Made by a program: the position numbers and the translations under genes
Notes under the pieces: generated by a model
Database searches by the model: none
Seen by the model: the letters and a program-made list of their open reading frames with translations, nothing else
Told to the model about the DNA's origin: nothing
Source of the DNA: Pseudomonadota bacterium
GTDB lineage: Bacteria > Pseudomonadota > Gammaproteobacteria > Steroidobacterales > Steroidobacteraceae
Reading direction: 5' to 3'
Assembly: GCA_018241505.1 (NCBI GenBank)
Contig: JAFEDS010000009.1
Span: 186,001 to 250,000, forward strand
Length of the DNA: 64,000 nucleotides
Shown here: piece after piece, positions 13,058-63,729 of the stretch
Numbering within the stretch: the stretch's first letter is position 1
How the letters are laid out: the number at the start of each line of letters is the position of its first letter

Positions 13058-13132
13058 TGGGGTGTCGCCAAGTGGTAAGGCAGCGGGTTTTGATCCCGCC
13101 ATTCGGAGGTTCGAATCCTTCCACCCCAGCCA
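13058..13132 (+). tRNA. tRNA-Gln(TTG), CCA encoded
   Basis: A full cloverleaf can be read. The acceptor stem TGGGGTG pairs with CACCCCA (13122-13128). The anticodon stem GCGGG/CCCGC encloses the loop TTTTGAT with anticodon TTG. The T-arm contains GGTTCGAATCC, and a CCA is encoded at 13130-13132. Its 3' end recurs at 13315 and, in deleted form, at 63694, marking it as an integration target. Confidence 0.96.
13117..13132 (+). repeat. Putative attachment core in the tRNA-Gln 3' end
   Basis: The 16-base 3' end of the tRNA (CCTTCCACCCCAGCCA) is the longest unit shared by all three copies in the window: here, at 13318-13333 and at 63714-63729. Together with the nearby tyrosine integrase this is the usual arrangement for tRNA-targeted islands. 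Exact crossover bases cannot be fixed from sequence alone. Confidence 0.6.
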
Positions 13133-13133
13133 T

Positions 13134-13172
13134 AAACACAAGGGCCCGCCAACTGGCGGGCCTTCGTGTTTG
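13134..13172 (+). terminator. Rho-independent terminator of tRNA-Gln
   Basis: A perfect 8-bp stem GGCCCGCC/GGCGGGCC with an AACT loop (13143-13162), extended by flanking AACAC/GTGTT pairing and followed by a T-rich tail. A diverged version follows the tRNA fragment at 63.7 kb. Confidence 0.8.
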
Positions 13173-13314
13173 TGGCGAGGTGGGAGGATAACGCCTGCGG
13201 CGCTCTGCCGGGATTGTATGGTCGCGCTCCTCATGTTGGTTGAGCGGTTGGCGTGGCATTTCTTTTGAGGCGCCGTGGGCGGCCCCGGAGGGGTGAGGCC
13301 CGCAGGGGCCGAAT

Positions 13315-13333
13315 AATCCTTCCACCCCAGCCA
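13315..13333 (+). repeat. Second copy of the tRNA-Gln 3' end (att-like)
   Basis: AATCCTTCCACCCCAGCCA matches the last 19 bases of the tRNA exactly, 182 bases after the tRNA ends. The interval 13134-13314 contains the tRNA terminator and no gene. The copy lies 175 bases from the integrase stop, so it may be the island's own left attachment site. The tRNA-side sequence would then be a leftover of an earlier insertion. Confidence 0.65.
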
Positions 13334-13508
13334 ACTCCATTTCTGTTCGTTCTGCGGTCACTTCTTCGTGACGGAACAATCGGTTGGCGCAGGTCTCGAT
13401 CCGGCGCGGCGCCCCGATTGTGACTGCGCGTTTCGCCTGGAGCGCGTCGGCTACTGACAGATTTGCTGCCAGATTTCGCGTCGGCGGGGCTTCACTCGCG
13501 TTCATCGA
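13334..13508. other. Gene-free spacer between att-like copy and integrase
   Basis: Together with 13134-13314 this makes a 375-base stretch after the tRNA without a believable gene. An open frame across it on the minus strand reads through the complement of the tRNA and of the att copy, giving the familiar spurious [12 protein letters not shown] translation. I reject it as a gene. Confidence 0.6.
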
Positions 13509-60913: not shown

Positions 60914-60915
60914 TC

Positions 60916-61617
60916 ATGCAGCGCAGAATACTCGTTATCATCCCGTTTCTGGTTGATGAGTCGACGCGGGAGTCGCACCTGCGGTGCCTGCAGCGGGATG
61001 CGGGGCCGCGTGGCTCGGTGCTTTCGGCTGTCAGTCTCTCCCAGGGTCCCACACCCGCCGATTTCAGCGAGCCGGGATTCAATCACGCGGTGTCAGACAT
61101 CGTCGCGATTGCGCAGCGGCATCAGGATGACTTTGACGGCATCATGATCAGTTGCTTCGAGGATCCCGGCCTGGCTGAGGTGCGCGAGGTGGCGCATATT
61201 CCGGTGGTTGCTCCCTGCGAGAGTGCTCTGCAGTTGGCGAGGTCGGCCGGAGGGCGCTTCTTTATCGTGTCTCCTGACCCAGGCAGCGAGCCTCTCTATC
61301 GACAGTTCGCCGCCGGCATGGGGCTTGCGGGCTGTTTCGGTTCCTTCGTTCATGTGCCCTTCGAGATCGAGGCGGCCGGGACGAATGCGGACCTGCCGGA
61401 TGTAGTCGCTGAGGCGATCCGCATGACCCGCCAGGAGGGCGCCGCGGATCTGGCCATCCTGGGATGTACTGCCTTCACCGAGTGTTATGAGGGCATCGTT
61501 GCAGGGGCAGGTGGTCGCATCCTCGACCCCGCGCGTGCTTCCATCAAGCTGCTCGAGCTGTTGATCGATCTCGGTCTGCGCAGATTGCCTGATTCCACCA
61601 GAATGGAAAGAAAATGA
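60916..61617 (+). CDS. Aspartate/glutamate racemase family protein (hydantoin-racemase-like)
   Basis: ATG 60916, 2 bases after the receptor stop, gives 233 residues. The two catalytic cysteines are in MISCFEDPGL near 77 and LGCTAFTE near 185. The superfamily includes hydantoin racemase and maleate isomerase. Beside a NicX-like gene, a maleate-isomerase role is conceivable; hydantoin racemase fits the amidohydrolase at 33 kb. Confidence 0.85.
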   Translation: MQRRILVIIPFLVDESTRESHLRCLQRDAGPRGSVLSAVSLSQGPTPADFSEPGFNHAVSDIVAIAQRHQDDFDGIMISCFEDPGLAEVREVAHIPVVAPCESALQLARSAGGRFFIVSPDPGSEPLYRQFAAGMGLAGCFGSFVHVPFEIEAAGTNADLPDVVAEAIRMTRQEGAADLAILGCTAFTECYEGIVAGAGGRILDPARASIKLLELLIDLGLRRLPDSTRMERK

Positions 61618-62504
61618 GCCCAGTTGCCGCACCCGCCAAGCTGATCGAGGCGTTCTGGATCGAAAAGTACCTGACCTTCTGGCAAACGCATCGCGGGCAG
61701 CTCATACCCACCGATCACCTTTTCCTGGCCGAGTATGTTCTGCGCGGCGACGTAAGCGATGCAAGGCGCTTTCAGGCCGATTTCTTTCGACTCGACAGTG
61801 ACATTCCGCTACAGACATACGGTGGCGCGGACAAGCTCTGGTGCAACCGCTATTGGGTCAATCGGAAGGTCCGGTCGTTTGATTCCCTGGACCAGCTCGA
61901 GCGCGCCCATCCGGCGACGGACAGTTACTACTGGCGGGTCACCGGTTCCACAATCGCGGGTGACATCCGACCGATTCGAATCGGTGGGCCCGAGGGCCGT
62001 ACCCAGATTCCCCGGCCTCACCCCATGCGGCTCGCGCAAGCCGGCCAGGCGGTAACCGAGTTTGATTCGATTGCAGCCGACCGGCCTCTGACGATTGAAT
62101 GGGATTCGTTCGAGAATGCCCGGGCAGGCGCCGTGATCGATGACACCATCTTTGTTTTTATTGACGATTGTCGTGGAGATGTCGTGTACTTTGGCGGGCT
62201 GCCGGTCGAGGCGCAGCGGATCCGGTTCGATTCCACGTCGGTAACGGTGCCGGCGGGTACGATGCGACCGGGCCAGCCTTACACGATATTTTTTTCGCAA
62301 TGCAGGATGGTCGATCAGGACGCCAGCGATGGTTTGATCAATTGCGCGGTCAACTCGTTCGGCATCGAGCTCGATTTTCACACCGCCGGAATCAATACAG
62401 GGGAGCCGTGTCCTGAGCCTCGCAAGATGGCGCCGTTTCGCTGGAAGCGCAAGACGCGGGTGTTGGCGGGCTTGGAGACTTGGCCCACCATTGCGGATAC
62501 GTGA
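61614..62504 (+). CDS. Unknown protein in TonB receptor operon
   Basis: 296 residues, no signal peptide, 4-base overlap with the racemase gene. The N-terminal 120 residues are helical with many tryptophans. The C-terminal part looks like a beta-sandwich (IEWDSFENARAGAVIDD, VFIDDCRGDVVYFGG, VTVPAGTMRPGQPYTIFF). I do not recognise a family. Its role is probably in the catabolism or handling of the receptor's ligand. Confidence 0.65.
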   Translation: MSPVAAPAKLIEAFWIEKYLTFWQTHRGQLIPTDHLFLAEYVLRGDVSDARRFQADFFRLDSDIPLQTYGGADKLWCNRYWVNRKVRSFDSLDQLERAHPATDSYYWRVTGSTIAGDIRPIRIGGPEGRTQIPRPHPMRLAQAGQAVTEFDSIAADRPLTIEWDSFENARAGAVIDDTIFVFIDDCRGDVVYFGGLPVEAQRIRFDSTSVTVPAGTMRPGQPYTIFFSQCRMVDQDASDGLINCAVNSFGIELDFHTAGINTGEPCPEPRKMAPFRWKRKTRVLAGLETWPTIADT

Positions 62505-62525
62505 GTTGGCCGGAGGACTGAGCCC

Positions 62526-63704
62526 ATGAGCGGCGCGGACGGTATCGTGTCCGCCGAGCCGCGCGGACAGTACATTTCCGCGATAGTGGCGGGAGCGCTG
62601 GTGTACGCGGTCACCATGACGCCGCCCAATGTCATGCCGGCCCTGGTCGGCCTGTTTGCCGACCATTTTCGGATGAGCGGATCCCAACTCGGAGTCGCCG
62701 CGGCGATGTATCCGTTGGGGCTCGCGATCGTTTCATTTACCTCGTTCCGTTGGGTTCGCATGGTTGACTGGCGGCGTTGGATCGCATTCGGCCTGCTGTT
62801 GATGGCATGTGCGATCGGTCTTCAATCCCTCTGCACCCAATTCGTCCAGATTGCTTTCCTGATGTTCATCGCGGGTGTCGGCGGCGGCCTCGCCGCATCG
62901 CCGGCACTGACCGTGTTGGGTGATGATGCCAACCCCCAGCGCAGCTTCGGGCTGATGATTCTGCTCAGTGTGCTTTTGCCTGCCGCCATCCTGGCGTTGA
63001 TACCGAGAATCCAACCAATCTTGGGCAACAGTGCAACCTTCATTCTACTGACCGCGCTGAGTCTGCTGTCGCTGCTGTGCATTTCGTGGCTGCCGCCGGG
63101 GCAGCACGCTCGGCCGGCCGGCGCGGCTCGCGAGCAGTCCTCGCGGTTTTCCTGGCCGCTCCTGGCCTCTCTCATCGGCATGCTGCTGTTCGTCGCCGGA
63201 TATGTAGCGGCATGGAATTTTCTGGAGCGAATCGGAAACCAGTCCCATCTCGAGCAGGGCGCGATTCTCGACTGTCTCGCGGTGGGAGGCCTGATCGGCG
63301 GCCTGGGCGGCTTTCTGGCCATTTTCCTCGGCCGCGCAATGACGCTTCGCACCTCCTTCCTGCTGGCCATCGCCGCAACGGTAGTGTCGTTGGGTTGCAT
63401 GGAGGTTCTGCCATTGACTCTCGGGGTGTTCTTTGTTTTATCCCTGAGCTTCCAGGTTTGGATCAGTGTGAATTTTTCGAACGGGCTCACTTTCATTGCG
63501 CTGAACGACACGGCCGGGACATCGGTCGCGCTGATTCCCGGACTTCAAAGTTTGGGCGCCTCTCTTGGCTCGGTGATAGCCGGCGTGGCCTTTGAGCAAG
63601 GGGGCCGGTTGGGCGTCATCGGCTCGGGCATCACGATCTTCCTGCTGTGCACCGTGTCGATGCTGGTCGCGTTTCGCCAGACAAGAGCCTCTTGCGGGTT
63701 TTGA
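62526..63704 (+). CDS. MFS transporter, C-terminus altered by tRNA fragment
   Basis: 392 residues with about 12 membrane helices. The N-terminal part has the MFS-like ADHFRMSGSQLGVAAAMYPLG and AGVGGGLAASPAL pattern. The last codons (CGF and stop) lie inside the tRNA-Gln fragment. The original 3' end was therefore cut by integration and replaced; only a few residues after the last helix are affected, so the protein may still work. Probably imports the product across the inner membrane. Confidence 0.85.
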   Translation: MSGADGIVSAEPRGQYISAIVAGALVYAVTMTPPNVMPALVGLFADHFRMSGSQLGVAAAMYPLGLAIVSFTSFRWVRMVDWRRWIAFGLLLMACAIGLQSLCTQFVQIAFLMFIAGVGGGLAASPALTVLGDDANPQRSFGLMILLSVLLPAAILALIPRIQPILGNSATFILLTALSLLSLLCISWLPPGQHARPAGAAREQSSRFSWPLLASLIGMLLFVAGYVAAWNFLERIGNQSHLEQGAILDCLAVGGLIGGLGGFLAIFLGRAMTLRTSFLLAIAATVVSLGCMEVLPLTLGVFFVLSLSFQVWISVNFSNGLTFIALNDTAGTSVALIPGLQSLGASLGSVIAGVAFEQGGRLGVIGSGITIFLLCTVSMLVAFRQTRASCGF

Positions 63705-63729
63705 TCCCGCCATCCTTCCACCCCAGCCA
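63694..63729 (+). repeat. tRNA-Gln 3' fragment with 14-nt deletion (right island junction)
   Basis: GCGGGTTTTGATCCCGCCAT (20 bases, anticodon arm) is followed directly by CCTTCCACCCCAGCCA, the last 16 bases. In the intact tRNA the two blocks are separated by 14 bases (13103-13116), bounded by AT repeats. It is too short for a working tRNA. Together with the copies at 13117 and 13315 it suggests the right end of an island. Confidence 0.85.

Follow-up and report, generated by a model that had tools for sequence, protein, structure and literature searches.

Organization of the tRNA-Gln locus

The 64,000-nucleotide stretch analysed here (hereafter, the window) is from a Pseudomonadota bacterium of the family Steroidobacteraceae (GCA_018241505.1; contig JAFEDS010000009.1, positions 186,001 to 250,000) and contains a glutamine transfer RNA (tRNA-Gln) gene followed by an integrase gene and a long run of accessory genes. 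It is part of a 654-kb contig (C46) of a 7.88-Mb assembly in 46 contigs, which is 93.9% complete with a reported contamination of 5.67%. The conserved left flank ends with a gene that we take to be ispE (11984–13042, + strand), the name following the initial annotation; this gene adjoins tRNA-Gln in relatives too. The intact tRNA-Gln(TTG) gene (13058–13132, +), the integration target, is the sole tRNA gene called in the window. It is followed by a hairpin-containing unit resembling RtT RNA (13133–13333, +), whose end is formed by the final 19 bp of tRNA-Gln, and by the gene of a 387-residue tyrosine integrase (13509–14672, −) with the Pfam domains Arm-DNA-bind_2 and Phage_integrase. A truncated 3′ remnant of tRNA-Gln lies at 63694–63729 (+).

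The initial annotation, which was made from the letters alone, had described an intact tRNA-Gln, a co-oriented 3′ fragment and an adjacent tyrosine integrase, and all three were found. It had also placed prs beyond the window, and prs indeed starts on the same contig, at C46:492470. The displacement is not the proposed ~50 kb, because prs lies 293,337 bp past the tRNA. Our verdict is that the locus is a real tRNA-Gln integration hotspot with an island, and that the 50-kb bounds understate it.

The site in related genomes

The genus search covered this genome and 57 relatives, of which 54 were informative for the site; G009 and G027 gave no match to the ispE-tRNA query, and the contig of G030 lacked the tRNA. 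prs directly follows tRNA-Gln in 52 of the 54 genomes, and the initial claim of an island at the ispE-tRNA-Gln-prs junction is supported by these empty sites. The distance between tRNA-Gln and prs is 15–309 bp in 51 of them; the remaining one, G013, was counted as empty with a contig that ends 61 bp past the tRNA and a readable prs start. The first 20 kb of the island had no listed match longer than ~1.3 kb in the 57 relatives, with five candidate stretches scored per genome. Of the observations that the initial annotation had named as contrary to its reading, neither a relative sharing the 50 kb in place without an empty site nor the 63.7-kb fragment in tRNA-free contexts was encountered.

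The site is occupied in the two other genomes. In G005, the closest relative by this locus (82% DNA identity), the tRNA is followed by a homologous integrase. Accessory genes flank a 50-bp tRNA-Gln 3′ piece of G005 on either side, and prs was matched by no open reading frame (ORF) of that contig; this argues that the site has been used repeatedly. In G002 (L196:7480–14057, G002:C13), 6.6 kb with three long ORFs lies between tRNA-Gln and prs.

Outside the genus, Peristeroidobacter soli JW-3 (NZ_ML142848.1) carries tRNA-Gln, a broken homologous integrase and ~15 kb of DNA, and ~40 bp or less from the prs match there is a 41-nt tRNA-Gln repeat. We take this island to be the simple form of the same event. 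It shares the junction, a homologous integrase and a tRNA-Gln 3′ repeat with the site studied here. It differs in its size of ~15 kb, the position of the attachment-site (att) repeat directly before prs, the broken integrase and its other cargo.

The integrase and its relatives

Among 28 loci of integrase relatives, 20 have a tRNA within ~700 bp (tRNA-Ser in 14, tRNA-Met in four and tRNA-Gln in two). In a tree of 28 rows, from which L116, L117, L193 and L121 were left out at fewer than 150 residues, the three Gln-associated integrases (this genome, G005 and P. soli) form one group with support of 98/98. Searches with the integrase gave 34 plasmid and 212 phage records, the best place of each having less than 60% identity.

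Three relatives of the window integrase (L094, L102 and L105) share one 153-kb contig, DAIDHD010000083.1. Three consecutive Phage_integrase matches are located on another contig of this genome (C26:4930–7333), resembling a recombinase-in-trio element.

Displaced 3′ ends of tRNA-Gln

The 36-nt remnant has the same orientation as tRNA-Gln and consists of two exact blocks, which correspond to tRNA positions 26–45 (20 nt) and 58–75 (18 nt). The blocks share two bases; therefore, 14 of the 50 nt between positions 26 and 75 are missing. They scored 39.1 and 35.2 bits, compared with a best value of 25.6 bits in 50 approximate dinucleotide shuffles of the window. The G005 piece likewise starts at tRNA position 26. 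The att pieces of G005 and P. soli are each preceded, at about 80–85 bp, by two closely spaced TGGTGGCAG-like repeats, an arrangement that would suit integrase arm sites, which they may be.

The remnant is incomplete, lacks such arm-like repeats and overlaps the end of a reading frame for a major facilitator superfamily (MFS) transporter, which enters it and terminates inside; these features would suit a chance or unrelated tRNA-like sequence. However, the two long exact blocks are in order and far above the maximum of the 50 shuffles, which rules out chance, and the start is shared with the G005 piece. Moreover, a hairpin region resembling that 3′ of the intact tRNA follows directly (63730–63795, +), and the stretches 3′ of the remnant and 3′ of the intact tRNA are 83.5% identical over 85 bp, 18 bp being the tRNA end. 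An origin unrelated to tRNA-Gln is thus extremely improbable.

A third tRNA-Gln 3′ repeat (19 bp, exact), missed by the initial annotation, is located at 13315–13333 between the tRNA and the integrase. A scan of this genome (G000) for the tRNA 3′ end with up to two mismatches gave four places, namely tRNA-Gln, the adjoining 19-bp repeat, the remnant and one on contig C6 (G000:C6:215808–215826, two mismatches).

We read the remnant as an internal, worn attachment-site relic. It is placed inside the block rather than at the chromosomal right border because non-collinear DNA runs 243 kb further to prs. Given the damage to the right-hand att and the lack of arm-like repeats beside the remnant, we doubt that excision of the 50-kb part occurs today.

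Extent of the accessory block

Compared with 400 kb of the relative G001, the contig is largely collinear over the ~100 kb that end at ispE, and collinearity returns with prs and the three ORFs after it. Between ispE and prs, a single ORF has at least 50% identity to the compared G001 stretch, and it is out of order; the weaker matches look like paralogs. Because collinearity stops at ispE and returns at prs, the displacement amounts to 293 kb, which places the remnant at 63.7 kb inside the block. The damaged fragment, with 243 kb of non-collinear DNA behind it, is therefore not supported as the border with the chromosome that the initial annotation had seen in it. Past prs, the contig is again non-collinear after tRNA-Met, where the relatives vary as well.

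The 5.67% contamination and the 46 contigs could point to an assembly or binning artefact, by which foreign DNA was wrongly joined between tRNA-Gln and prs. However, the 654-kb contig has no N in the 473 kb examined, and its GC content is 0.58–0.64 per 10 kb throughout. The left junction is a proper tRNA-integrase arrangement shared with G005, and a gene cluster of the block, at 252–258 kb of C46, has kin in the same genus. We regard such an artefact as improbable.

The outer 243 kb contains 179 ORFs of at least 90 residues, 37 of which were given to Pfam. A family match was obtained for 35 of the 37, and none was to a mobility family; the families include peptidases, sugar hydrolases, amidohydrolases, transporters, TonB receptors, complex-I-like subunits and an EAL/GGDEF protein. 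Across the whole 293 kb, 12 ORFs form a cluster that contains the two TonB receptors of the window, and Pfam adds two further TonB receptors. The cluster at 252–258 kb, found once in this genome, encodes a Mur-ligase-type protein and a similar 969-residue protein, which we assume to be cyanophycin-synthetase-like. It occurs elsewhere in at least 16 relatives; therefore, part of the outer block may be native. The folD gene beside prs was considered as a sign of native core DNA and rejected, since it is a second copy and another is present on contig C41. The outer part thus appears to mix native-looking DNA with DNA that has no close kin in the genus.

A rival reading is an ordinary 50-kb island that ends at the 63.7-kb piece, combined with an unrelated rearrangement of native DNA that moved prs 243 kb further on. 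The 50-kb part agrees with those rules of the Islander method that could be checked. These rules (PMC4383910) ask for a tRNA with a co-oriented 3′ fragment downstream, an integrase inside, a fragment outside Pfam domains and a length of 2–200 kb. Here, a co-oriented fragment lies downstream, the integrase is inside and 50.6 kb separates the tRNA from the remnant; the MFS_1 match ends at residue 348 of 392, and no more than the final codons of the frame extend into the fragment. Taken as a whole, the 293-kb block would exceed the length limit. The absence of a second integrase from the outer block, the absence of an att piece at prs and the location of the conserved cluster outside this site in the relatives fit a rearrangement. 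In addition, G002 has three genes like those at 443–450 kb of C46 on the same contig as its copy of the cluster, and the neighbours of the cluster in G001 are spread over several contigs of this genome, so that gene order is loose anyway. On the other hand, the remnant is damaged and lacks repeats of the kind that accompany the att pieces in two relatives. The folD next to prs is not the core copy, and the G005 piece also runs into accessory genes rather than prs. An island of 50 kb with a separate rearrangement is therefore possible but rather unlikely.

Proposed mechanism and comparison with known systems

The reading that we prefer, and consider probable, is that tRNA-Gln-directed integrases use the ispE-tRNA-Gln-prs junction as a hotspot, and that the site has been filled to 293 kb in this genome, the window being its left part. 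It is based on the observed anatomy of the locus, the empty sites of relatives, the displaced prs, the kinship of the integrases and the simple island of P. soli. An incoming element would bring with it the tRNA-Gln 3′ part, starting at the anticodon stem. Recombination would then restore an intact tRNA and leave the former 3′ end further along as a direct repeat. The site of this genome would have filled up in this way, possibly in that order of steps and with the outer 243 kb gained by accretion, and 293 kb now lies between tRNA-Gln and prs. The window contains the tRNA, the RtT-like unit, the integrase, ~50 kb of cargo and, at 63.7 kb, what we read as an internal att relic.

Several observations weigh against this reading. 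The window integrase is the only integrase match within the 293 kb. Near prs, where the sequence was also read, a search allowing two mismatches found no tRNA 3′ end, and an att copy beside prs was rejected. A 513-kb scan of the contig for arm-like repeats gave eight degenerate matches and no pair at the remnant. The 252–258 kb cluster is located elsewhere in the relatives, as described above. The G002 insert has no match to the two integrases tested and no tRNA piece. Finally, the Gln group of the tree has three rows, two of which represent short or broken sequences, and another Gln locus (L116) was left out for its shortness.

The nearest precedent for the whole block is the tandem ssrA islands of Dehalococcoides, which use a serine recombinase and an ssrA target (PMC3146451). 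The two systems share repeated 3′ ends of one RNA gene, some accessory segments without an integrase and gene-dense DNA past the last repeat. In contrast, the site described here has a tyrosine integrase, a tRNA-Gln target and only one remnant beyond the tRNA region. Of the feature typical of a tandem array, a target 3′ end for each element, it shows the 19-bp repeat and, at 63.7 kb, a single worn piece, but none at prs. The islands defined by Islander (PMC4383910) resemble the 50.6-kb part in the intact tRNA, the displaced co-oriented fragment, the tyrosine integrase between them and the empty site of relatives; they differ in that our accessory block extends 243 kb past the fragment, which itself lacks 14 internal nt. 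The accessible part of a report on a Steroidobacteraceae genome (PMC11613949) does not treat this site. A literature search on the junction, Steroidobacteraceae islands, RtT, tycheposons, tRNA cassette arrays and accretion found no report of this junction.

The kind of island is thus already known, and the unusual features are its size, its wear and the RtT-like unit. The locus would be a clear case of genome growth by hundreds of kilobases at one tRNA gene, at a site that is empty in nearly all examined relatives, and the extra 293 kb consists mostly of nutrient-scavenging genes. It also provides a warning that a pair of tRNA and fragment can delimit only the inner part of an accessory block.

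RtT-like units

RtT RNA represents the tyrT repeats of Escherichia coli, whose units each terminate with the 3′ sequence of the tRNA gene before them. To our knowledge, the origin of these repeats is unexplained. The 201-bp unit after tRNA-Gln terminates in GAATAATCC together with the remainder of the tRNA end. In G005, a unit that shares this cap is located 3′ of the 50-bp tRNA piece, and two in tandem, with a tRNA-Ser end, precede an integrase match in G078. All four units match the full length of the Rfam model (RF00391), and all are below its gathering score of 45 bits: 19.4 bits here (13167–13333), 22.6 in G005, and 25.8 and 27.7 in G078, with E-values from 0.28 to 0.002. An unrelated Rfam family scored about equally for the unit of this genome (19.8 bits), and its RtT match is weak when taken alone. 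Run on 2.5 Mb of fetched sequence enriched for integrase loci, a cap profile built from the four units recovered these four and a single weak additional place.

The gap between tRNA-Gln and prs is shorter than 100 bp in 50 of the 51 measured empty sites, which is too short for such a unit. Therefore, the unit seems to accompany an occupied site and not the tRNA gene as such. Its likeness to RtT RNA lies in the end formed by the last 19 nt of the preceding tRNA and in the full-length match. It differs from RtT RNA in that scores are 19–28 bits against 45, the ends match tRNA-Gln or tRNA-Ser, and each of the four units has an integrase or att piece next to it. We tentatively suggest, as a less than even possibility, that RtT-like repeats are end modules of tRNA-directed integrase elements, each restoring the last 19 nt of the target tRNA, and that tRNA genes of this lineage become integron-like loading sites through such ends. 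The second part is proposed because arrays of toxin-antitoxin cassettes, mostly without an integrase match, occur at the neighbouring tRNA-Met. If RtT-like units are mobile-element ends, the origin of a tRNA-adjacent repeat becomes testable.

A hairpin with a 19-bp tRNA-Ser end was observed at two more integrase loci (L117:7800–8120, where it sits after arm-like repeats, and L112:10509). They were not counted as RtT-like, L112 having an RtT E-value of 2.9 and L117 no RtT match.

Cargo genes

The GC content of the 14–22 kb region is 52–58%, compared with ~62% in the left flank. This region includes the genes of an NYN-domain nuclease (15682–16302, −; HEC-09/NYN in PADLOC) and of an Imm53 immunity protein (18220–18537, +) preceded by two unnamed genes. 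Pfam assigned a LysR regulator (−) with CMD-family and DUF1348 proteins (+) at 21082–23114. An operon at 25273–29665 (+) encodes an unnamed protein, a ketosynthase-III-like enzyme, an ABC ATPase, an ABC permease and a weak YHS match, and a diverged counterpart of four of its five genes is present in G005:C97. It is followed by a glycosyl hydrolase of family 88 (29755–31146, −).

A block for peptide and sugar catabolism occupies 33460–54651. It comprises M20 and M24 peptidases, a beta-eliminating lyase, a permease, an enolase-superfamily enzyme, DUF1611, a TonB receptor, a tricorn-like protease, a PF00144 serine hydrolase, an M19 dipeptidase, a 3-keto-disaccharide hydrolase and a GMC oxidoreductase. 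The pair of enolase-superfamily and DUF1611 proteins beside the permease, with functions that we assume from these families, suggests the use of D-amino acids or peptidoglycan peptides. The last genes (58523–63704, +) encode the second of the two TonB receptors of the window cargo, a member of the Asp/Glu racemase family, an unnamed protein and the MFS transporter whose frame stops in the remnant.

Of the cargo initially proposed, the metabolite operon (ketosynthase-III/ABC) and the catabolic genes for peptides and sugars were recovered, whereas defence is thin. It comprises Imm53 and the NYN protein, the latter being the only match among ten proteins given to PADLOC. The Pfam results for the window part and the 37 of 179 outer ORFs contained no conjugation genes in a search that was not exhaustive, and no phage structural genes, no PHROGs search being made.

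The neighbouring tRNA-Met locus

At the tRNA-Met(CAT) locus, eight relatives contain 13 units of 937–4988 bp, each bounded by tRNA-Met 3′ pieces (L211, L212, L213, L214, L215, L216, L219, L220 and L222; units longer than 6 kb were left out of the count). They have a common right end of ~156 bp with paired TGCGGGA repeats. Their cargo includes Fic, HigBA-like and RES-Xre genes, a phosphoesterase and an unnamed gene pair; two weaker antitoxin/toxin matches were below the Pfam cut-off. Only the G001 unit matched either of the two integrases tested. Similar units in a different order are found in G006, G025 and G036. In this genome, the reading frame of a tyrosine integrase (C46:496346–497553, L058) overlaps the tRNA-Met 3′ end, and its counterpart in G001 (L219:5937–7126) overlaps it likewise.

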